Assembly: GCA_003153935.1 (NCBI GenBank) | Contig: PMCA01000017.1 | Span: 1-33,652 of the forward strand | Source of the DNA: Elusimicrobiota bacterium | Lineage (GTDB): Bacteria; CAYTYR01; UBA6262 | Length of the DNA: 33,652 nt | Direction of reading: 5' to 3' | Part shown: piece by piece, positions 23,105-33,652 of the stretch | How the letters are laid out: every line of letters starts with the position of its first letter | Position numbering within the stretch: position 1 is the first letter of the stretch | Notes under the pieces: model-generated | Told to the model about the DNA's origin: nothing | The model's input: only the letters and a program-made list of their open reading frames with translations | Databases searched by the model: none | Position numbers and translations under genes: made by a program

Positions 23105-24847
23105 ATGGTTTTGTTAAAGAAGACGGGAACTCATAAAAGGCTGGGAGAAATGCTGGTGGAGACCGGCATTATTACCAGCGAACAGCTGTCAGAAGCTTTG
23201 GAAGAGCAGAAAAAAAGCGGCGGACGGCTGGGACAGAACTTAATGGCCCTGGGATATATTACCGAAGACGTCATGGCGGCCTTTGTCGGCAAACAGCTGG
23301 GCATTTCTTATGTCTCGCTCAGCGAATACGGAGATATACCGGCCGAGGTCATCAAGATCGTGCCGGAGAACATTTCCCGGCACCAGACCCTGGTGCCTAT
23401 CTCGCTGGAAGATAATATCCTGACCATCGCCATGGCTGATCCGTTGAACGTATTTACCGTGGACGACCTGCGGGTCATGACCGGTTACGAGATCAAAGTG
23501 GTGATCTCCTCAGAAGCGGAGATCAAGCAAACTATCGAGAAATATTACGGCAATAAGGGCTCCATGGAAGATATCCTGAAAACCATGGATGATACTAAAG
23601 GGGGCGGCGGTACCCTGGAAGTAGTGCAGGAGCACGAAGAACAGGTAGACATCGCCTCCCTGGAAGCCATGGGTGAAGAAGCCCCCGTGGTCAAGATCGT
23701 CAACCTGGTCCTGACCGGCGCCGTCAAATCCGGGGCTAGCGACGTCCATATCGAACCCTTTGAGAAAACACTACGCACCCGCTATCGCATCGACGGCGTG
23801 CTGCATGAGATCTCTTCACCGCCCAAGCGCCTGACCGCGGCGATCGTTTCCCGTATCAAAATCATGGCCAACCTGGACATCGCTGAAAGGCGTTTGCCCC
23901 AGGACGGCAGAATTAAAGTCAAGGTGCTGGGCAAGGAAGTTGACCTGCGCGTTTCCATCCTGCCGACTGCGTTCGGCGAAAAAGTCGTGATGCGTATTTT
24001 GGACGCATCCTCCCTGTGCCTGGACCTGACCAAGTTAGGATTTGACCCGGACGTCCTGCCGATCTACCAGAAGAACATCGACGTGCCTTACGGCATAGTC
24101 CTGGTAACCGGCCCAACCGGCAGCGGTAAATCAACCACTCTTTATTCTTCCCTAAGCACCCTGAATTATCCCGATCGCAATATCATGACCATAGAAGACC
24201 CGGTGGAGTATGTGCTGGAAGGCATCAACCAAGTGCAGGCCAAGCCGGATATCGGCCTGACCTTTGCGGCCGGATTGCGTTCCTTCCTGCGCCAGGACCC
24301 GGACATCATCATGGTCGGCGAAATTCGCGACGCGGAAACGGCGGAGATCGCCATCAACGCGGCCCTGACCGGCCACTTGGTGTTCTCCACCCTGCATACC
24401 AACGACGCCTCCGGCGCCGTCACCCGTCTCACGAACATGGGTATTGAACCGTTCTTAACCGCTTCGACCGTGGTTATGGTCATTGCCCAAAGACTGGTGC
24501 GCAAAATTTGCGATCACTGTAAAGAAGATTACCAGGTTCCGGCTTCGTTTATCCGTGACCTGGGGCAGAAATATGAAGATGATAAACCAGTGTTGTTATA
24601 CCGCGGCAAAGGTTGCGATCATTGCTCCAATACCGGCTATCGCGGTCGTCTGGCCTGTTATGAAATAATGACCGTGGCCGATGAGATCAGGGACCTGATC
24701 CTGGAAAGAGCCTCCACCCATCTGGTCAAACAAAAGGCCCGGGAGCTGGGCATGATCACCCTGCGTGAAGCGGCTTTTCGCAAAGTTTTGAACGGCACGA
24801 CTACCGTGGAAGAAATGATGAGAGTAACTTTCGCTGACGCAGGCTGA
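23105..24847 (+). CDS. pilB: Type IV pilus assembly ATPase PilB (GspE family)
   Basis: A 580-residue hexameric motor that drives pilin polymerisation at the inner membrane. It has two N-terminal MshEN-type regions (LGEMLVETGIITSEQLSEAL and LGYITEDVMAAFVGKQLG), then the secretion ATPase core: DVHIEP, Walker A GPTGSGKST, the Asp box IEDPVEY, Walker B IMVGEIRD and the His box GHLVFSTLHTNDA. A zinc site is formed by CDHC and a second CDHC followed by NTGYRGR. The MshEN regions suggest possible cyclic-di-GMP binding, which is inferred from the family. AGGGG lies 8 bases before the ATG. It heads the pilus cluster. Confidence 0.95.
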   Translation: MVLLKKTGTHKRLGEMLVETGIITSEQLSEALEEQKKSGGRLGQNLMALGYITEDVMAAFVGKQLGISYVSLSEYGDIPAEVIKIVPENISRHQTLVPISLEDNILTIAMADPLNVFTVDDLRVMTGYEIKVVISSEAEIKQTIEKYYGNKGSMEDILKTMDDTKGGGGTLEVVQEHEEQVDIASLEAMGEEAPVVKIVNLVLTGAVKSGASDVHIEPFEKTLRTRYRIDGVLHEISSPPKRLTAAIVSRIKIMANLDIAERRLPQDGRIKVKVLGKEVDLRVSILPTAFGEKVVMRILDASSLCLDLTKLGFDPDVLPIYQKNIDVPYGIVLVTGPTGSGKSTTLYSSLSTLNYPDRNIMTIEDPVEYVLEGINQVQAKPDIGLTFAAGLRSFLRQDPDIIMVGEIRDAETAEIAINAALTGHLVFSTLHTNDASGAVTRLTNMGIEPFLTASTVVMVIAQRLVRKICDHCKEDYQVPASFIRDLGQKYEDDKPVLLYRGKGCDHCSNTGYRGRLACYEIMTVADEIRDLILERASTHLVKQKARELGMITLREAAFRKVLNGTTTVEEMMRVTFADAG

Positions 24848-24854
24848 AGTAGAT

Positions 24855-24882
24855 GTTGATAGTTGATCGTTGTCAGTTGATA
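24855..24882 (+). repeat. Tandem heptamer repeat GTTNNNN, four units, between pilB and pilT
   Basis: GTT recurs at 24855, 24862, 24869 and 24876. Units are GTTGATA, GTTGATC, GTTGTCA and GTTGATA. It starts 8 bases after the pilB stop and ends 29 bases before the pilT start. Confidence 0.8.
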
Positions 24883-24911
24883 GAAAAAGCCAAAAAATTG
24901 GAGACAAACGC

Positions 24912-25976
24912 ATGGTAACGATGGACGAGCTGTTACGCCTGATGTACAAAAAGGGAGCCAGCGACCTGCATATTACCGTAGGTTCTCCGCCGCAGCTCCG
25001 CATCGACGGCGAGTTGATAAAGCTGGATTTTGAAGAAATTACCCCGGAAGTCTGCCAGCGCCTGATCTACAGCATCCTCAGCGATAACCAGAAAGAAAAA
25101 TTCGAAAAATTCAACGAACTTGACCTGTCCATAGGCATCAAGGAAGTCGGCCGGGTCAGAATGAACGTATTCCGCCAGCGCGGACAAGTGGGCGCGGCCA
25201 TTCGTTCGATCCCGAACAAAATATTGGGGTTTGAAGAACTGCGCCTGCCGGATGTAGTTAGGGATTTCGTCAAATTGCCTAAAGGCCTGGTGCTGGTCAC
25301 CGGCGCCACCGGCAGCGGCAAAACCACCACCCTGGCGTCCATCATTGATTTTATTAACGAGAACCGCCACAATCATATCGTCACCATTGAAGATCCTATC
25401 GAATACGTACACGGGCATAAGAATTGCATCGTCAACCAGAGAGAAGTGGGCGGCGATACTCATTCCTTTGCCCAGGCGCTCAAATATGTACTGCGCCAGG
25501 ACCCCGATGTCGTGCTGGTCGGCGAAATGCGCGACCTGGAAACGATCGGGGCGGCCCTGTCCATCGCGGAAACAGGCCACCTGGTATTTGCCACTCTGCA
25601 CACTACGGACGCGCCGCAATCCATCAACCGTATCATCGATGTGTTCCCGCCTTACCAGCAGACGCAGATACGGGCGCAATTGTCTTTCGTATTGCAGGGG
25701 GTATTGTGCCAGCAGTTGATACCCAAAGCTTCCGGTTCGGGGCGGGTAATGTGCTGCGAAGTACTGGTAGTAACCCCGGCGGTCAGGAACCTGGTCCGCG
25801 AACAAAAGACCCAGCAGATCCCGTTAGCGATGCAAACCGGCGGCAAATACGGCATGCAGACGATGAATTACGGGCTATATGAACTTTATTCCAAACATAT
25901 TATTACTTATGCAGAAGCTATGGCTCACACTCTGGACGCTGAAGACCTGCAAAGGTTGTGTAAGGAAACATTTTAG
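24912..25976 (+). CDS. pilT: Type IV pilus retraction ATPase PilT
   Basis: A 354-residue hexameric ATPase that depolymerises pili and powers twitching motility. It shows the N-terminal KKGASDLHITVGSPPQLRIDG, Walker A GATGSGKTT, the Asp box IEDPIEYVH, Walker B LVGEMRD, the His box GHLVFATLHTTDA, and the PilT-specific C-terminal AVRNLVRE followed by GMQTMN. ATG 24912 is chosen because GGAG sits 8 bases upstream; the in-frame TTG at 24870 would translate part of the GTT repeat and adds nothing conserved. Its presence indicates a retractable pilus rather than a type II secretion pseudopilus. Confidence 0.96.
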   Translation: MVTMDELLRLMYKKGASDLHITVGSPPQLRIDGELIKLDFEEITPEVCQRLIYSILSDNQKEKFEKFNELDLSIGIKEVGRVRMNVFRQRGQVGAAIRSIPNKILGFEELRLPDVVRDFVKLPKGLVLVTGATGSGKTTTLASIIDFINENRHNHIVTIEDPIEYVHGHKNCIVNQREVGGDTHSFAQALKYVLRQDPDVVLVGEMRDLETIGAALSIAETGHLVFATLHTTDAPQSINRIIDVFPPYQQTQIRAQLSFVLQGVLCQQLIPKASGSGRVMCCEVLVVTPAVRNLVREQKTQQIPLAMQTGGKYGMQTMNYGLYELYSKHIITYAEAMAHTLDAEDLQRLCKETF

Positions 25977-26000
25977 ACTGAGTAAAAGGAGGCAAGATAA

Positions 26001-27242
26001 ATGCCGAAGTATTCCTATCGAGTCCGCGCCGCCCAAGGCGGTGAAATGACCGGTGTCATGGAAGGTAAAACGCAGCGTGACGTTTCCGACAAACTGCGCA
26101 GCCAGAAATTCACCATCCTGTCGATAGAGGAAGAAAAAAAGAGCTACGTCAATATGTTGATCGAGTCTTTGCCTTTTATGAAAAAGGGGACGGGTAAACG
26201 GGTAAAGACCAAACACTTGGTGTTGTTCAGCCGCCAGTTGTCCACCCTGGTCAGCGCCGGCGTTCCTATCGTCCAAGGGCTCAATATTCTGATCGAGCAG
26301 ATCGAAAACAAGAATTTTAAAATGGTAGTGGAATCGGTCAAGAATGACATTGAAGGTGGTTTATCTATCGCCGATTCCATGGCCAAATACCCGTGGGTTT
26401 TTGATGAACTTTACGTCGGCATGATTCGCAGCGGTGAAACCGGCGGCGTGCTGGATATTATCCTGGAGCGGTTATCAACCTACCTGGAAACTTCCGAGAA
26501 ATTAAAAGGGAAAGTTAAAGGTGCTATGGTTTACCCGGCTATCGTGACCACGGTGGCGGTCTCCATCACGATCTTCCTGCTGGTGGTGGTCATCCCCACG
26601 TTTAAGCAGGTCTTCTCCGCGTTCGGCGGAGAGTTACCGTTACCTACCCAGGTCCTGATCAATATCAGCGAGATTTTAAAGAAATATTTTATCTGGGGAA
26701 TATTACTGATAATTATCGGGCTGTTCCTGGGCAGGCAATGGAGTAAGACGGAGAAGGGCAGCCGGATCTGGCACAAGATATTACTGAAGATCCCTGTCTT
26801 CGGTCCGCTGCTGCGGAAAGTTGCCATAGCCAAATTCTCCCGGACCCTGGGTACGCTGGTGAAGAGCGGCGTGCCCATCCTGGACGCTATCGGCACCACC
26901 GGCAAAACCTCCGGGAACAAGATAGTGGAAGACGCGGTAATGAACGCCCGGGAAAATATCCGCGAAGGCGAAAGAATAGCCAGCCCTTTAAAGGAAAGCG
27001 GCGTATTCCCGCCGATGGTCATCCAGATGATATCGGTAGGAGAAGAAACCGGCGCCCTGGACAATATGCTCAACAAGATCGCCGATTTCTACGAGCAGGA
27101 AGTTGATGTGGCGGTCGGCGGCCTGACCAGCATGATCGAGCCGCTGATCATGGTAGTCATGGGCGTAGTCATCGGCGCCATTGTTATAGCCATGTTCATG
27201 CCGATCTTCAACCTGGGAGAAGTTGTCAGCAAAGCGGGTTAA
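26001..27242 (+). CDS. pilC: Type IV pilus inner membrane platform protein PilC
   Basis: A 413-residue platform protein with two T2SSF domains (about residues 75-195 and 275-400) and about three membrane segments. Markers are KHLVLFSRQLSTLVSAGVPI, YPAIVTTVAVSITIFLL, KFSRTLGTLVKSGVPILDA and MISVGEETGALDNML. The two halves repeat the pattern FSRxLxTLVxxGVPI, as usual. AAAAGGAGG precedes the ATG. It ends 7 bases before the -35 box of the major pilin promoter. Confidence 0.95.
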   Translation: MPKYSYRVRAAQGGEMTGVMEGKTQRDVSDKLRSQKFTILSIEEEKKSYVNMLIESLPFMKKGTGKRVKTKHLVLFSRQLSTLVSAGVPIVQGLNILIEQIENKNFKMVVESVKNDIEGGLSIADSMAKYPWVFDELYVGMIRSGETGGVLDIILERLSTYLETSEKLKGKVKGAMVYPAIVTTVAVSITIFLLVVVIPTFKQVFSAFGGELPLPTQVLINISEILKKYFIWGILLIIIGLFLGRQWSKTEKGSRIWHKILLKIPVFGPLLRKVAIAKFSRTLGTLVKSGVPILDAIGTTGKTSGNKIVEDAVMNARENIREGERIASPLKESGVFPPMVIQMISVGEETGALDNMLNKIADFYEQEVDVAVGGLTSMIEPLIMVVMGVVIGAIVIAMFMPIFNLGEVVSKAG

Positions 27243-27248
27243 AAAAAC

Positions 27249-27277
27249 TTGACAATAACAACGCAGTGTGGTATTTT
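27249..27277 (+). promoter_or_regulatory. Promoter of the major pilin gene
   Basis: A perfect TTGACA (27249-27254), a 17-base spacer, then TATTTT (27272-27277) within TATTTTTATAAG. The minor pilin operon has the same -35 box, spacer length and -10 context at 28726-28754. Confidence 0.65.
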
Positions 27278-27321
27278 TATAAGGGAGCATTACAACTTCA
27301 AAACAAAAGGGGGTGAGATTA

Positions 27322-27807
27322 ATGATGAGGTTTTTAAGAAGCAAAAAGGGCTTTACATTGGTTGAATTGATGATCGTGGTCGCTATTATCGGTATTTTAG
27401 CCGGTATTGCTATTCCGCGTTATATGAATTTCGTGAGAAGGTCCAGAGAAGGTGCTACCAAGGGTAACTTAGGGACAATTCGTTCTGCATTAAATATTTA
27501 TTACAGTGATAACGACGGTATTTTCCCGGCTGGTTCAGCAGCCGCTCTTACTGGTGTCCCATTTGTCGGCACAACCGCTAACAATTATCTTGATGCCCTG
27601 CCGTCCGCGAATGAAGATTGCGGAAACGTTGCCCACAAGAACAATGGCAGCGTGCGCGCGGGTATTGCCTTTGCCACGGCGTCTAACAATGCCGGTGGCT
27701 GGCAGTATGAAACAGCCGGTGGCGTAGCCGTATCCACTTCGGCGGCGAGAATTTTGATCAACTGCACGGCGAACGATACCAAGGGTACCGTAATCTCTAC
27801 TTGGTAA
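27322..27807 (+). CDS. Type IV major pilin (PilA/GspG-like prepilin)
   Basis: A 161-residue class III prepilin. A basic leader ends in KKG, cleaved before [20 protein letters not shown], with Glu at mature position 5. The mature domain has [19 protein letters not shown] near its start, a short GspG-like C-terminal part ([10 protein letters not shown]) and two cysteines (in NEDCGN and ILINCTAN) that may form a disulfide loop. It carries its own promoter and a very strong ribosome site (AGGGGGTGAG), as expected for an abundant subunit. ATG 27322 is chosen from that site; ATG 27325 is equally possible, and the GTG at 27313 lies inside it. Confidence 0.93.
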
Positions 27808-27830
27808 AGCTTTTCGGCTAATAGTAAACA

Positions 27831-27866
27831 CATGAATGGGTTGGGGATCTCCTCAACCCATTCATG
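27831..27866 (+). terminator. Long hairpin between the major pilin and pilD
   Basis: A 13-bp perfect stem (27831-27843 with 27854-27866), extended by about 3 bp including a G-U pair, with a 4-base loop. The sequence after it (GTTTCTGCCTTTCTG) is only moderately T-rich, so it may be a leaky terminator or a 3' stabiliser that lowers pilD relative to the pilin. Confidence 0.7.
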
Positions 27867-27880
27867 GTTTCTGCCTTTCT

Positions 27881-28708
27881 GTGGAGGAAAGTATTTTTAT
27901 TAGCGAAGCGATAATTGTTTTCATATTCGGAATGCTTTTTGGTAGTTTTGCTAATGTCTGCGTTTACCGTATCCCGCGTAAAGAATCCATTGTTTTCCCG
28001 GCATCCCATTGCCCCGCCTGTAATTCCGCCATTGCCTGGTATGATAACATTCCCGTATTTAGTTTCCTGAACTTGAGAGCCAAATGCCGTTCCTGCCAAG
28101 AGCCCATATCCTGGCGTTATCCGGCTGTGGAGCTGTTGACCGGACTGGCTGCGGCGGCTTTATACTGGCGTTTCCAGTTATCACACTTTTTTTGGCTCTA
28201 CGCCTTATTAACCCTGGTGCTGATAATAGTATCGGTAATTGACCTGAGAGAGCAGATAATCCCCGACGAATTGAGCTACGGGCTCGTTATTGCCGGGGTT
28301 TTATATAGTTTTTTTAATTCAGAGCTATTCCTGAAATGGCTTTTTTATTTCCCCCAGTTCCTGAACCGTTTTGTAGCCAGTTATCTGGGCCTGTTGGCTG
28401 GCGGCGGCGCCTTGTACCTGATCGGCTGGCTCAGCGGAGTTATTTTAAAGAGGGAGACAATGGGGGGCGGGGATATAAAGTTGGCCGCTGGCATTGGTAC
28501 CTTCCTGGGTTGGGAGAATGTTTTGATCATGCTTTATATAGCTTTTATCTTGGGTGGGACGGTCGGTTTGACCTTGTTGCTTATAAACCGGAGCAAGAAG
28601 AAAGACCTGATACCTTTTGGGCCTTTTATTGCATTGGCTACCTTTATAGTTATACTGTTCGAGCCGCAAATTTATGCGCTGCTAAGCTCATATTTCACTT
28701 TTTACTGA
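27881..28708 (+). CDS. pilD: Prepilin peptidase / N-methyltransferase PilD
   Basis: A 275-residue bifunctional membrane aspartic protease that cuts prepilin leaders and methylates the new N terminus. The N-terminal methylase region has GMLFGSFANVCVYRIPR and the four-Cys zinc site CPAC plus CRSC. The protease aspartates are in DLREQIIPDE and GGGDIKLAAG. Around eight membrane segments are visible. The start is uncertain: GTG 27881 gives a full first membrane segment but has no ribosome site upstream; GGAGG (27883-27887) points instead to an ATT at 27893; the in-frame ATG 27836 lies inside the hairpin and adds residues of no family character. Confidence 0.9.
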   Translation: MEESIFISEAIIVFIFGMLFGSFANVCVYRIPRKESIVFPASHCPACNSAIAWYDNIPVFSFLNLRAKCRSCQEPISWRYPAVELLTGLAAAALYWRFQLSHFFWLYALLTLVLIIVSVIDLREQIIPDELSYGLVIAGVLYSFFNSELFLKWLFYFPQFLNRFVASYLGLLAGGGALYLIGWLSGVILKRETMGGGDIKLAAGIGTFLGWENVLIMLYIAFILGGTVGLTLLLINRSKKKDLIPFGPFIALATFIVILFEPQIYALLSSYFTFY

Positions 28709-28798: not shown

Positions 28799-29365
28799 AT
28801 GTTACTGCGCTTCAATAAAATAAAAAAAGACGCCCGTGGAGTTACACTGGTAGAGCTTATGCTGGCCCTGGCCATCATATTATTGGTGATAGCTCCGTTG
28901 GTCAAGGCTTTGTACCAGGGTATGAAAGGGTCAGTCAGGTTCGGCGATACGAACAAGGCCATCCAGCTGGCGCAAGAGCTGACGGAAGAAATTAAACAGA
29001 AAAAATGGGACGAAACAACGCCCATCGGTGGAGGAGCTACCACCACACCGTCGGCTATCGGTATTGATGGCGGGGAAACCGCCGGAAATAAGACCACCTA
29101 TGACGATATCGATGATTATAATGGTTTAGTCGAGCATCCGCCCAAGGATATAAATAATGTGGAGATCCCAAACACTTCGCATTTTACCAGGTGGGTTGCA
29201 GTGCAGTATGTAAACATCCCTATGGCTAATTCGCCAGCGGTAAACCTGGTGCAGGCAGTTGCCGGGCCAACTGACTACAAGCTTGTAACCGTAACCGTAA
29301 CCTGGGATGGGTATACGACTCCTGTGGTCCTGAAAACAGTGGTAGCGAATATAAAGAAATTTTGA
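28799..29365 (+). CDS. Minor prepilin, PilV/GspI-like
   Basis: A 188-residue prepilin. The leader ends in DARG, cleaved before VTLVELMLALAIILLVIAPL, with Glu at mature position 5. The mature part has a helix (RFGDTNKAIQLAQELTEEIKQK), a low-complexity Gly/Thr-rich loop (IGGGATTTPSAIG), and a beta-rich C terminus with LVTVTVTWDGYTTPVVLKTV, the pattern seen in PilV/GspI-type minor pilins. GGAG lies 5 bases before the ATG. It is the first gene of an operon of four prepilins, which fits a tip-initiating minor pilin complex. Assignment to PilV rather than another minor class is inferred. Confidence 0.78.
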   Translation: MLLRFNKIKKDARGVTLVELMLALAIILLVIAPLVKALYQGMKGSVRFGDTNKAIQLAQELTEEIKQKKWDETTPIGGGATTTPSAIGIDGGETAGNKTTYDDIDDYNGLVEHPPKDINNVEIPNTSHFTRWVAVQYVNIPMANSPAVNLVQAVAGPTDYKLVTVTVTWDGYTTPVVLKTVVANIKKF

Positions 29366-29387
29366 GTGATATCGGAGACCTGTGCAG

Positions 29388-29702
29388 ATGAATTTACCAA
29401 AGATCAGGAATGAAAAGGGCAGTACCCTAATAGTCGCAGTGATGCTCTTAATTATCTTGGGGGTGGTAGTTGGCTCGTTCGCTTTCTGGCTGGCCGTTCA
29501 GTCGCGGGGACTGGCCCATAAAAAAGCTATTTCCCGGGCGGAATACTACGGTGAGACCGGGGTGCAAAGAGCTCTGCGGTATATCCAGGACAATCCTTCT
29601 GTACAGCAGGCGCTATTGACCAACAATGCTACTAACTATCATTTTTTGGTTGGCGTGGACACCGGCACTGTCGCAGATGTCAAGATTAAGGTGTTGCAGT
29701 GA
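29388..29702 (+). CDS. Minor prepilin, PilX-like
   Basis: A 104-residue protein. The leader ends in RNEKG, and the hydrophobic segment is STLIVAVMLLIILGVVVGSF. It lacks the Glu at mature position 5 (Val there), as in PilX-type N termini, which marks a subunit at the end of the assembly. The mature part is short, with AEYYGETGVQRALRYIQDN, a pattern typical of PilX (Ala-Glu-Gly-Ala-like helix). ATG 29388 is chosen, 10 bases after GGAG; GTG 29382 is an alternative that adds two residues. It overlaps the next gene by 4 bases. Confidence 0.7.
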   Translation: MNLPKIRNEKGSTLIVAVMLLIILGVVVGSFAFWLAVQSRGLAHKKAISRAEYYGETGVQRALRYIQDNPSVQQALLTNNATNYHFLVGVDTGTVADVKIKVLQ

Positions 29703-30664
29703 GCTCCCGTCGCGGCATAACCCTGGTCGAATTAATGATCGTCGTAGCCATAGTCAGCATCATCGGCGTCGGCTTGGTCAATTTGATAAGGATCAGCATG
29801 AATATCTGGTGGGCCGGCGGCGTCAAGGTCGAATTACAGCACTATGCCCAGGAAGCGATGTTCTGGATCAGTAAGGACCTGAGAAGCGCCAAAGCCTCCA
29901 GCGTCGGCAATGTCGGTTATAACTCCGGGTTTGAGATACCCCTGGACAGTAATCTGCCGTCCGGCGATCCTTACGGCTGGCAGAGCCCCTTACCGGCGGG
30001 AGTAGCGCGCATCAGCTCCAATGATCCCAACCTGAAAAGCGGTTTTTACGGCATGAAATTAACCAACAGCGGCGCCACCGTTAATTATGAAAGCGAGGTG
30101 GCCACATTCTCAATGACCGGCACTTATACTTTGTCCTGCTGGATAAAATCGGACGGTCCGGCGGAAGTTCGCTTGCTGCAGGATACCGGGTTTGATTTCA
30201 TACCGGCCGTATCGACGGGTTGCGCTACCGGTTCTTTATACTGGCAGCATCTTTCCATCACCACCAGCAAGGCCGCCGGGACCAAGTTCAAGATCCGGCT
30301 CACTAACGCCAATGCCGGCGGCACGAGCTATTTTGACGATGTCGGCATCGCTCCTTTGAAAGTCGAGTTTAACCCGAGTGATCCTCCCGGGTATTTTACT
30401 TACGAAAAATATACGGGGCTGAAAATAAACGCCTGGCGCTTGTATTATGATCCGGCCACGCGGAATTTGTACCGGCAGGTCTTCGACGGCTTGACCTGGG
30501 TCACCCAGTCTCCTGACCCGTTATGCCAGGATGTCCAAGCGGTCGTAATTTCCAATAATGAACAAACTAATTTCATGGTTAGCCTGACCCTGTCCAAGCC
30601 GGTCAGGGCTGGGAAGATCGAAGAATACCGGGTGGATAACAGCATTACGCCCCTGGTGCCTTAG
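29699..30664 (+). CDS. PilW-like minor prepilin with carbohydrate-binding-like jelly roll
   Basis: A 321-residue prepilin. The leader RRG is cleaved before [15 protein letters not shown], with Glu at mature position 5. Residues about 50-70 are the pilin helix (MFWISKDLRSAKASS). From about 75 to 220 it has a jelly-roll-like domain: a GFE start, SGFYGMKLTNS, YTLSCWIKSDGPAEVRLL, WQHLSITTSK, FKIRLTNANAGG and YFDDVGIAPL. This order resembles carbohydrate-binding module 4/9-type domains. The C terminus (RLYYDPATRNLYRQ, then a beta-rich tail) resembles PilW. GTG 29699 overlaps the previous stop by 4 bases. The neighbouring gene is a paralogue with an inserted domain. Ligand binding is inferred only. 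Confidence 0.78.
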   Translation: MSSRRGITLVELMIVVAIVSIIGVGLVNLIRISMNIWWAGGVKVELQHYAQEAMFWISKDLRSAKASSVGNVGYNSGFEIPLDSNLPSGDPYGWQSPLPAGVARISSNDPNLKSGFYGMKLTNSGATVNYESEVATFSMTGTYTLSCWIKSDGPAEVRLLQDTGFDFIPAVSTGCATGSLYWQHLSITTSKAAGTKFKIRLTNANAGGTSYFDDVGIAPLKVEFNPSDPPGYFTYEKYTGLKINAWRLYYDPATRNLYRQVFDGLTWVTQSPDPLCQDVQAVVISNNEQTNFMVSLTLSKPVRAGKIEEYRVDNSITPLVP

Positions 30665-30694: not shown

Positions 30695-32770
30695 ATGATC
30701 AACCTGCGCAAAAAGGGAACGACGCTGGTAGAGCTTATGATGGTAATTGCGATCGTTTCCATTGTTTTTACCGGTATAATCATGCTCATACAGAAAGTAA
30801 GCAAAGGTACCTGGCTGCAATCAGGCGCCCTGGACCTGACCCGTAATGCCAATGACGCCATGTACTGGATCGAGCATGACTTCATCAATGCCAAAGCCTC
30901 CTCCATGGGGAACCAGGCTCAGAATCCTGGTTTTGAAGACCCCCTCATCTCCTGGCAAGATCCCTACTGCTGGAATGCTTTATCGACAGCCAATGCTATT
31001 AAGTTAGGACCGGGCGGGGATAGGATAAAATCAGGCTTCTACTCCGTCGGTGTGCCGCCCGCAAACAATTATGAAAGCCTGGTCGGCACTACCACTTATA
31101 CCACGGCAGCAGCGGGGACCAGGAACTATATCCTGTCAGGCTGGGTTAAGAACGAGAACCGCGGTCTCGGCGAATTAAGGATGGTGACGCAGGCGGGAGC
31201 TGATTTTGCCCCGGCGGTTTTTGTTTCTTCCACAACTACTTCTAACCCCGGCTGGGATCATATTACTACCACTACGAACCAACTTGTAAACATTAATTTT
31301 AAATTCAGGCTGACCCACACCGGGGGTGATTTCTGGAGCAAGATCATGACCAACGCCATCGGCAGCGGCGGCCGGGATTACGGTTACAACTATGGTTACA
31401 ATGGCGGCACAGGTACGGGAACATTAGGCGCATACAAGGGATTCCTGTATGAAGCCATGACTGATCCGGGAGCTTCAAGTTATGCCGTTTATTATGACGG
31501 GGCGATATGGAATACCGCTCAAACCAGCGGCTTGGGAGCGGAAACTCCAAACTATATTTATAATATGGCGCCGGGAATGAAGGCGGAATATAATGGCATG
31601 ATTTATGCGTTCCGGAATCCCGGTTTAGCGGGGAATGTCTATGCGCTCAAGTGTTTTAACGGGTCAAACTGGAGTACCGTAAACAGTTTAGCTTTCTATC
31701 AGGGAACTGCATTGGAACAGTCCAGCAGTGTAAACTGTTACGCGGTTTTCCAGGGTAATCTTTATATGGGAGGTTGGTGGAAGGGCACCCCAGAACAGGC
31801 CATCTGGCAGTATGACGGGACCAATGTCAACCGGGTTTACTACGTGGCTGGAGGCGGTACCAGGGTTACCGATCTGTGTGTTTATGGCACTCGTATCTAT
31901 GCCTTGACTAACTGGATACCTGGCAGTCAGGTAATTGCCAGCGTTGACGGGCTCAACTGGGTGCCAGATGCCAATTTTACTCTTTTGTGCGTTGGGACTT
32001 TTGCAGCAGGATCCTGGGCTACCAAAATGGTGTCATATAATGGCAAGCTTTATGTCGGCGTAAACGGCGTGTACCCTGGTTTTATGTCGAGACTGTTCGT
32101 ATATGACGGGGTTTCCTGGTCTGCGCCAGCCGCCGCCGTATTAAGTGAAGATGCGAATATTACCGCTTTGTATGTGGATAATGGTATTCTTTATATTGGC
32201 ACCAGCGGCCAGGATGGCGGCAGGATCTATACTTGGAACGGCGCGGCGATTAACCCAAGTTATACTCTGTTTGGTTCTTCTTTTTTTAAGACGATAAATT
32301 CCATAATATCCTATAACAGTTTACTGTTGGCTAATTACAACCAGTGGAATCCCGGACCGGTGGGGGAAACCGGTATTTTACAGTGGGGCGGTTATACCTT
32401 GTTTGACGACGTCTCTCTTTCCCCGGCGCAGGTAGTCTTCTCCAGCAGTACCGCGGTAAGCACCGATACCACTTACGAATATTATACAAATTACGGAACT
32501 TCAGAAACAGACCTGAATAAATACAGGAAATACCGCTTGCGTTATGACCGGCCCAACCGGAAGCTATACCGCGAACGCTGGACGGGACCCAATCCGACAG
32601 ATTATGCTCTGGACGGTCCAGACCCGTTGTGCGCTAATGTCGTCAATTTGACGATAATTAACCGGAACCAGGAGTCATTTTTAGTGAGATTGGTTTTGGA
32701 GAAGCCGGTCGGCGAAGGCAAGACAAAGCTTTACCGGGTTGAAAATGAATGTGCCCCCAGGGTGCCTTAA
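30695..32770 (+). CDS. PilW-like minor prepilin with a propeller-like domain nested in the jelly roll
   Basis: A 691-residue prepilin. The leader RKKG is cleaved before TTLVELMMVIAIVSIVF. Residues 50-211 follow the preceding paralogue closely (AMYWIEHDF, NAKASSMGN, NPGFEDPL, IKSGFYSV, YILSGWVK, FKFRLTHTGG), and homology resumes at LFDDVSLSPAQVVF (569-582) through the same PilW-like C-terminal tail ending in RVP. Between them, about 212-566, is an extra domain of seven similar units starting near 246, 298, 349, 395, 447, 492 and 538. Each has a YNGxLYxG strand and most have a DGxxW strand, as in Kelch-like beta-propellers. AAAGGA lies 8 bases before the ATG. A cell-surface adhesin role is inferred. 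Confidence 0.8.
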   Translation: MINLRKKGTTLVELMMVIAIVSIVFTGIIMLIQKVSKGTWLQSGALDLTRNANDAMYWIEHDFINAKASSMGNQAQNPGFEDPLISWQDPYCWNALSTANAIKLGPGGDRIKSGFYSVGVPPANNYESLVGTTTYTTAAAGTRNYILSGWVKNENRGLGELRMVTQAGADFAPAVFVSSTTTSNPGWDHITTTTNQLVNINFKFRLTHTGGDFWSKIMTNAIGSGGRDYGYNYGYNGGTGTGTLGAYKGFLYEAMTDPGASSYAVYYDGAIWNTAQTSGLGAETPNYIYNMAPGMKAEYNGMIYAFRNPGLAGNVYALKCFNGSNWSTVNSLAFYQGTALEQSSSVNCYAVFQGNLYMGGWWKGTPEQAIWQYDGTNVNRVYYVAGGGTRVTDLCVYGTRIYALTNWIPGSQVIASVDGLNWVPDANFTLLCVGTFAAGSWATKMVSYNGKLYVGVNGVYPGFMSRLFVYDGVSWSAPAAAVLSEDANITALYVDNGILYIGTSGQDGGRIYTWNGAAINPSYTLFGSSFFKTINSIISYNSLLLANYNQWNPGPVGETGILQWGGYTLFDDVSLSPAQVVFSSSTAVSTDTTYEYYTNYGTSETDLNKYRKYRLRYDRPNRKLYRERWTGPNPTDYALDGPDPLCANVVNLTIINRNQESFLVRLVLEKPVGEGKTKLYRVENECAPRVP

Positions 32771-32795: not shown

Positions 32796-33652
32796 ATGAA
32801 GATAACTTTTGATTTTACCAAGACCTTAGCGTTAACGGCATTATTTATGACTGTTGTTTTCGTGAACGGCTGTCACAAGAAGGATAAATTCGCTGAGCCG
32901 GACCTGACGCCTCCAACCCTGTCAAATATAACTGCCAGCTCGGTGACTGACTCGACGATCACCATCACCTGGAGCACGGATGAATCGGCCCTGGTTACCG
33001 TGGAATATGGGACGACCACCAGTTACGGGTTAAGCGAGGTTTCTACCGCCACCGGTATGTCGGGCAGTTTCGGCCTGACCGGATTAACGCCTGACACTAC
33101 TTATCATTATCGTATCAAGGCTGTAGACGACAGCGGCAATGTTACCTACAGCGCCGATGACAGTTTTACCACCAACGGGCCCCTGGCCACCATCCAGGTT
33201 ACCCCGACGACGGTTGACATGGTAACGGAGGAAGTAAGATTATTCACTGCTACCGGGAAAGACGCGCACGGCAAGGCGGCGGCGGTCGTTCCCAACTGGA
33301 GCGTTACCAACGGCATAGGCACTCTATCAGCCAGTATGGGCTTAACCGTAGCTTTAACCGCCGCGGATGCCAATGCGGCGACATCGGGTACAATAACGGC
33401 CACTTACGGCGGCATCACCGGCTCCGCTACCGTAAATATTACCGGGGGATTTTTCCCGGCTCCACCGGAAGACGGGGCCATATACAAGATAATTACTCCC
33501 AATGCCAGCAGCGAAATATTGGCTGAATATTATATGGGCGTAAATACCTTAGAAGGTGAAACAAGCTGGCTAAACGATAATGATCCTACCTGGACCGCCA
33601 GCCACGACTATATGAAGTTAGCTTACCCCGGTTCTTCTAGCTGGGGCGCAGC
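32796..33652 (+). CDS. Lipoprotein with fibronectin type III and Ig-like domains (partial, 3' end outside window)
   Basis: An open frame running from ATG 32796 to the window edge (285 codons, no stop). A signal peptide ends in a lipobox VNGC (23-26), so the protein is a lipoprotein. Residues about 40-125 form a fibronectin type III-like domain (TITITWSTDESALVTVEYG, TPDTTYHYRIKAVDDSGN). Residues about 130-215 form a bacterial Ig-like domain (VTPTTVDMVTEEVRLFTATG, then GTITATYGGITGSATVNI). From about 218 a further domain starts (DGAIYKIITPN), cut off by the window. GGAG precedes the ATG by 6 bases. It follows the minor pilins 25 bases later and is probably in the same operon; a role on the outer surface is likely but unproven. 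Confidence 0.82.
   Translation, partial: MKITFDFTKTLALTALFMTVVFVNGCHKKDKFAEPDLTPPTLSNITASSVTDSTITITWSTDESALVTVEYGTTTSYGLSEVSTATGMSGSFGLTGLTPDTTYHYRIKAVDDSGNVTYSADDSFTTNGPLATIQVTPTTVDMVTEEVRLFTATGKDAHGKAAAVVPNWSVTNGIGTLSASMGLTVALTAADANAATSGTITATYGGITGSATVNITGGFFPAPPEDGAIYKIITPNASSEILAEYYMGVNTLEGETSWLNDNDPTWTASHDYMKLAYPGSSSWGA

Follow-up and report, generated by a model that had tools for sequence, protein, structure and literature searches.

A minor pilin of an Elusimicrobiota bacterium with a predicted kelch-like propeller nested in a CBM4-like jelly roll

The window analysed here is a 33,652-nucleotide stretch of contig PMCA01000017.1 (assembly GCA_003153935.1) from an Elusimicrobiota bacterium, and its subject is the open reading frame at 30695-32770, whose protein we call P0001. 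P0001 is a minor prepilin in which a jelly-roll domain appears to be split by an insert of seven kelch-like propeller units, while the protein of the adjacent paralogue at 29699-30664, P0002, has the jelly roll without the insert. A preliminary description of this DNA, made from the sequence alone, had the reading frame, the coordinates and the paralogy right. The features of the gene are listed below; repeats 1-6 are placed by the repeat profile, leave-one-out scoring and the structure model, and repeat 7 by the profile, weak leave-one-out scoring and the model.

30695..32770, + strand: minor prepilin P0001, 691 aa, with pilin helix, propeller-split jelly roll and C-terminal pilin-type domain (N_methyl, PF07963)
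30695..30718, + strand: class III leader peptide MINLRKKG (sequence and PF07963; expected cut after G8, mature start TTLVE (TTLVELMMV) with Glu5)
30719..30886, + strand: pilin alpha-1 helix region, residues 9-64 (alignment to paralogue; modelled helices 11-35 and 41-73)
30923..31327, + strand: first part of CBM4-like jelly roll, residues 77-211 (2zew match; 1gui through paralogue profile)
31316..31354, + strand: segment HTGGDFWSKIMTN, proposed outer (closure) strand of blade 7 (second-best outer-strand match outside the repeats)
31328..32386, + strand: insert of 353 aa, residues 212-564, predicted seven-unit kelch-like propeller (paralogue alignment, repeats, model)
31418..31570, + strand: repeat 1, residues 242-292
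31571..31729, + strand: repeat 2, residues 293-345
31730..31864, + strand: repeat 3, residues 346-390
31865..32017, + strand: repeat 4, residues 391-441
32018..32158, + strand: repeat 5, residues 442-488, closest to consensus
32159..32293, + strand: repeat 6, residues 489-533
32294..32386, + strand: repeat 7, residues 534-564, no outer strand of its own
32387..32425, + strand: last jelly-roll strand GGYTLFDDVSLSP, residues 565-577 (aligns with 1gui YFDDVTVSP through paralogue)
32426..32767, + strand: C-terminal pilin-type domain, residues 578-691 (~43% identity to P0002)

The interrupted jelly roll

The only match of P0001 in its own genome is P0002, and it comes in two pieces: residues 6-209 match 29708-30310 (42% identity, E = 2.7e-34) and residues 565-691 match 30317-30661 (43% identity, E = 7.7e-17). 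In an affine alignment, the two pieces meet in P0002 at 206|207 and no residue is left out between them, so the paralogue runs straight across the gap, as had been described. The insert had been placed at residues 212-566; its start stands, while its end moves to residue 564, two residues fewer, the boundary being ambiguous by two residues because GG is present at both ends. The GC content of the first half, the insert and the second half is 0.504, 0.486 and 0.501, and the codon index of the insert is 0.625, versus 0.632 and 0.635 for the flanks. Since the insert matches its flanks in composition and codon usage, neither a chimeric contig nor a recent import is suggested; a chimeric assembly was rejected on the intact reading frame together with the flank-like codon usage.

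The sequence of P0001 alone weakly matches the carbohydrate-binding module 2zew (E = 0.0056, residues 69-155). When P0002 is combined with three relatives in a profile, this aligns to residues 4-154 of the 155 of 1gui (E = 5.6e-6), the CBM4 of Thermotoga maritima laminarinase 16A, and the alignment ends on YFDDVTVSP, so that with a profile of propellerless relatives the whole domain of a CBM4-type jelly roll is covered. The resemblance thus runs from end to end and includes the last strand (YFDDV), whereas the Thermotoga domain is a glucanase module with no insert. The insertion point lies at profile columns 209|210, in the loop immediately before the last jelly-roll strand. By these alignments, therefore, the jelly roll is complete in the relatives and broken before its final strand in P0001, in agreement with the preliminary claim that the insert interrupts a jelly roll; the fold is CBM4-like and the break falls between the last two strands.

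Jelly-roll pilins without the insert are found in two genomes of the same family as the source (G001 and G003) and, in a different class, in a further six (G076, G218, G504, G506, G507 and G508; frames of 316-415 aa). Ten jelly-roll pilins are known to us in all, nine without a propeller, P0002 included, and one with. A look for the same nested layout in related genomes had been proposed, and none was found there, all nine relatives being propellerless. The jelly roll itself is lacking in a 238-aa relative from G072 (L015); the CBM4-like sandwich therefore looks like a graft after helix 1, which would make three levels in all. A CBM4-like sandwich in the pilin head, as in 29699-30664, is common to two distant lineages, and we found no description of it in the open-licence literature.

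The seven-unit insert

A profile built from the seven units finds all of them in register. In leave-one-out scoring, units 1-6 were each equalled by 0-6 of 500 shuffles; unit 7 is weak, its score being reached by 39 of 500. The count of seven in the preliminary description is thereby borne out, also by seven modelled sheets (see below). Its motifs, YNGxLYxG followed by DGxxW in most units, are present in related but looser form, with Y..G.[LI]Y in four of the seven units and [DN]GxxW likewise in four. Ungapped self-similarity of the insert is not above that of shuffles (best 45, shuffle mean 36, maximum 49). There is no Pfam match within the insert block, kelch signatures included, and a PDB sequence search with the block alone gave no credible match. 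Close relatives of P0001 or of the block were absent from the genome contigs, viral contigs, phages and plasmids searched. Elsewhere in the source genome, a weak single repeat-profile match (L027, C13:47630-47701) lies in a secreted 824-aa frame beside an outer-membrane-type protein.

The repeat profile also detects units in other genomes, where full-length proteins such as L075 and L088 are the most informative. Proteins of this type (family A4) occur in 79 of 120 genomes of one bacterial order with genomes of ~5-10 Mb; they are uncharacterised and conserved (e.g. L088:1501-3150 and L107:1489-3156), and their laminin-G jelly roll is divided by a kelch-like propeller of seven units. Pfam detects just the second half of Laminin_G_3 in this family, after the propeller (profile positions 79-151). 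The family profile matches kelch structures, namely the designed SAKe6BC (E = 2.6e-9) and KLHL20 (E = 6e-8), and hhalign of the P0001 repeats against the family gave 90.7%. In an alignment of the family with P0001, the blades pair 7:7. Like P0001, these proteins have seven units of the same type and phase (outer strand first, last unit open) and a split jelly roll; unlike P0001, they are not pilins, and they carry a laminin-G sandwich where P0001 has a CBM4-like one. The closest propellers found for the insert are thus those inside the laminin-G jelly roll of a non-pilin family.

For AlphaFold2 we used an alignment (A5) of P0001 residues 1-583, three jelly-roll pilins and seven laminin-G-nested propellers, whose rows had originally been found with the repeat profile. 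The resulting model contains seven sheets of three to four strands each within residues 243-564, with a predicted local distance difference test score (pLDDT) mostly of 58-82 in blades 3-6 and lower elsewhere. Foldseek returned 590 PDB matches to the model at E<=0.001, and the best 50 of the 590 are all propellers (kelch, WD40 and peptidase). As modelled, the insert consists of recurring blades, three to four strands each, set in a ring as in a kelch-like propeller. The earlier reading of the insert as propeller-like is thus in accord with the modelled sheets, the structural matches and the links to kelch-like families.

Closure of the ring in P0001 is likely, since the last unit is without an outer strand and the segment before unit 1 (HTGGDFWSKIMT) resembles one. 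Outside the repeats of P0001, just one other stretch matches an outer strand better than this segment does; the equivalent segment in L088 is a clear best match (13.0 versus 0.1). The repeat profile was built with the segment before unit 1 included, so a match of that segment to the profile carries no evidence.

The pilus operon and comparable pilins

PF07963 matches residues 5-28 of P0001 at 21.8 bits, over the cut-off of 21.2, and this pilin N-terminus is the sole match of the whole protein in Pfam, NCBIfam and PHROGs. Upstream, on the same strand, the order is pilB, pilT, pilC, major pilin, peptidase-like gene and three more prepilin-like genes:

23105..28708, + strand: type IVa pilus machinery, with pilB, pilT, pilC, major pilin and prepilin-peptidase-like gene (PilB and PilT over curated cut-offs)
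28799..29702, + strand: two small prepilin-like genes, PilV/ComGE-like and PilX-like (weak family matches)
29699..30664, + strand: paralogue P0002, jelly-roll minor prepilin without insert, adjoining the P0001 gene

PilT reaches 490.7 bits (cut-off 319.1), and the PilB model gives PilB a higher score than the GspE model does; the peptidase-like gene was assigned by reading its sequence, NCBIfam giving no match for it. The cluster is a type IVa pilus operon, and the operon and the PF07963 match uphold the identification of P0001 as a minor pilin. The paralogue had also been called PilW-like, a label that has gene order and shape in its favour; no PilW family model matches P0001, and N-terminal pilin models alone do. 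P0001 combines several marks of a modular type IV pilin: a class III signal, a hydrophobic alpha-1 with Glu5, extra non-pilus domains and pilus machinery in the same window. Directly after P0001, at 32799-33652, follows a lipoprotein-like gene with a signal ending in VNGC and an fn3 domain, which runs off the window end; its product is a possible surface partner of the pilin.

Modular pilins were catalogued in 2021, with >1,200 proteins in 264 architectures (PMC8179133). The catalogue includes GspK of type II secretion, which like P0001 has a domain inserted in a pilin-type subunit; in GspK, however, this is an alpha-domain at one nesting level, in a pseudopilus. In Streptococcus sanguinis, PilC is a lectin pilin (PMC9934059), and PilB (vWA) and PilC (lectin) resemble P0001 in carrying a bulky binding module on a pilin, with presumed tip display (PMC8179133, PMC9934059); their modules, in contrast, follow the pilin part via a short linker, with no propeller and no nesting. 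The closest precedent is in TM7x (Saccharibacteria), where one minor pilin, PilX2, carries a seven-bladed propeller of the RCC1 type and another, PilX1, a domain resembling a jelly roll (PMC12206443). There the two domains are C-terminal and on separate pilins, and the repeats are RCC1, whereas P0001 would nest a kelch-like propeller in a CBM4-like jelly roll within one pilin. The PilY1/PilC adhesin shares with P0001 a seven-bladed propeller tied to minor pilins at the tip; it is a separate, non-pilin protein with PF05567, while P0001 is a prepilin. Membership of P0001 in the PilY1 family was rejected, there being no PF05567 match and the propeller lying inside a prepilin.

Two further pilin-headed frames were noticed in the genomes searched. 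L060:1397-4381 (- strand) encodes a 995-aa minor pilin with SdrD_B-like domains and then C-terminal FG-GAP (integrin-type propeller) repeats, and L061:952-5859 (+ strand) is a frame that runs off its contig and encodes bacterial Ig-like domains in a product of 1636 aa or more. The preliminary description knew of no comparable pilin; TM7x PilX2/PilX1 (PMC12206443), the catalogued modular pilins (PMC8179133) and the FG-GAP pilin speak against such novelty. In the open-licence literature we found no description of a pilin whose jelly roll encloses a propeller. The novelty of P0001 lies in its two levels of nesting, a propeller within a jelly roll that is itself part of a pilin; the protein probably represents a variant of the modular pilins already described as tip adhesins and does not establish a new type of system.

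Interpretation and alternatives

The prepilin signal, operon, insert boundaries, jelly-roll homology and seven units were computed and the propeller-type fold was predicted; we infer a closed ring, a place at the tip and a bound ligand, as well as a possible replacement of PilY1. We regard it as reasonably probable that P0001 belongs to the modular type IVa minor pilins, carries its propeller within a CBM4-like sandwich and is displayed at the tip as a putative adhesin. The N-terminal helix and C-terminal domain would make P0001 a filament subunit. The pilin head would have gained a CBM4-like beta-sandwich as a graft behind helix 1 and, in the P0001 gene alone, a kelch-like seven-bladed propeller would then have been inserted between the last two sandwich strands. 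A closed propeller has its two ends next to each other, so it may be accommodated in a loop while the host fold stays intact. The bulky head would place the protein, together with the remaining minor pilins of the operon, at the tip of the pilus. There the face of the propeller, perhaps along with the sandwich, may bind a surface ligand, plausibly a glycan, and PilT-driven retraction would pull the cell toward it. Deletion of pilX2 in TM7x lowers host binding from ~10.6% to 4.6% of host cells (PMC12206443), which is a precedent for reading P0001 as an adhesin. A tentative extension, which we hold to be possible but doubtful, is that a PilY1-less lineage put a propeller adhesin at the tip independently, a CBM4-bearing minor pilin having captured a kelch-like propeller, of the type housed elsewhere by laminin-G jelly rolls, and become a two-module adhesin in one chain.

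Several observations weigh against this interpretation. Confidence in the A5 model is modest (mean pLDDT 51, predicted template modelling score 0.51), and the rows of its alignment were picked from ~2,100 trial sets for in-register blades, which favours a propeller outcome. A single-sequence AlphaFold2 run on P0001 was uninformative (mean pLDDT 32), though its strands show a blade-like rhythm. The modelled jelly roll has a pLDDT of 31-51 and its last strand one of 22-35, so an intact sandwich is not confirmed by the model; residues 211-240 are at 24-30 and residues 206-242 below 50. The closing segment is modelled as a short low-confidence helix, not a strand. Structure prediction had been proposed as the test of the preliminary description, and it gave the propeller but neither a closed ring, no closure being seen, nor an intact jelly roll. 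Moreover, none of the relatives found shares this nesting, and functional conservation therefore cannot be argued. Finally, the lack of a PF05567 match in the source genome and its four nearest relatives, which by itself would favour the interpretation, is a negative of unproven sensitivity, as 0 of 14 control genomes were positive.

The absence of PilY1 matches from the source genome and its nearest relatives also suits the idea that the propeller stands in for PilY1, mainly capping or priming the minor-pilin tip complex with no external ligand, and in Myxococcus PilY1 is reported to form a priming complex with minor pilins (PMC7541494). We consider this unlikely: P0001 itself has no PF05567 match, and G001 and G003 have the jelly-roll pilin with neither a propeller nor a PilY1 match, so that the propeller seems unneeded for assembly in this family and a binding role is favoured over priming. 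Less probable still is a pseudopilin of a type II secretion pseudopilus whose propeller binds cargo. A weak N-terminal GspH match (E = 4.6e-4; 20 bits, where the cut-off is 80) and a PilB that is also over the GspE cut-off point that way; an operon with PilT, and with PilB better as PilB than as GspE, is the signature of retractile type IVa pili.

A neutral graft, in which the propeller entered a pilin after its duplication and is tolerated there although no selected function maintains it, would agree with its presence in one of ten jelly-roll pilins and with the propellerless paralogue next door, but the intact 1 kb frame, the seven recognisable units and the flank-like codon usage indicate an insert neither recent nor decaying, and we find this explanation as improbable as the pseudopilin. 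The poorest prospect is that the insert has another beta-rich repeat fold or a different number of blades; here the weak unit 7, the modest model confidence and the tuned alignment rows are set against a repeat profile linked to kelch-like families, the seven modelled sheets and the propellers in the structure search.

With the architecture proposed here, P0001 extends the concept of modular pilins, in which modules follow one another, to modules set one inside the other at two levels. That the separate laminin-G family also holds this propeller type in a jelly-roll loop suggests an insertion module that can be transferred, and the adjacent paralogues with and without it form a natural plus/minus pair for the contribution of the propeller at the pilus tip.
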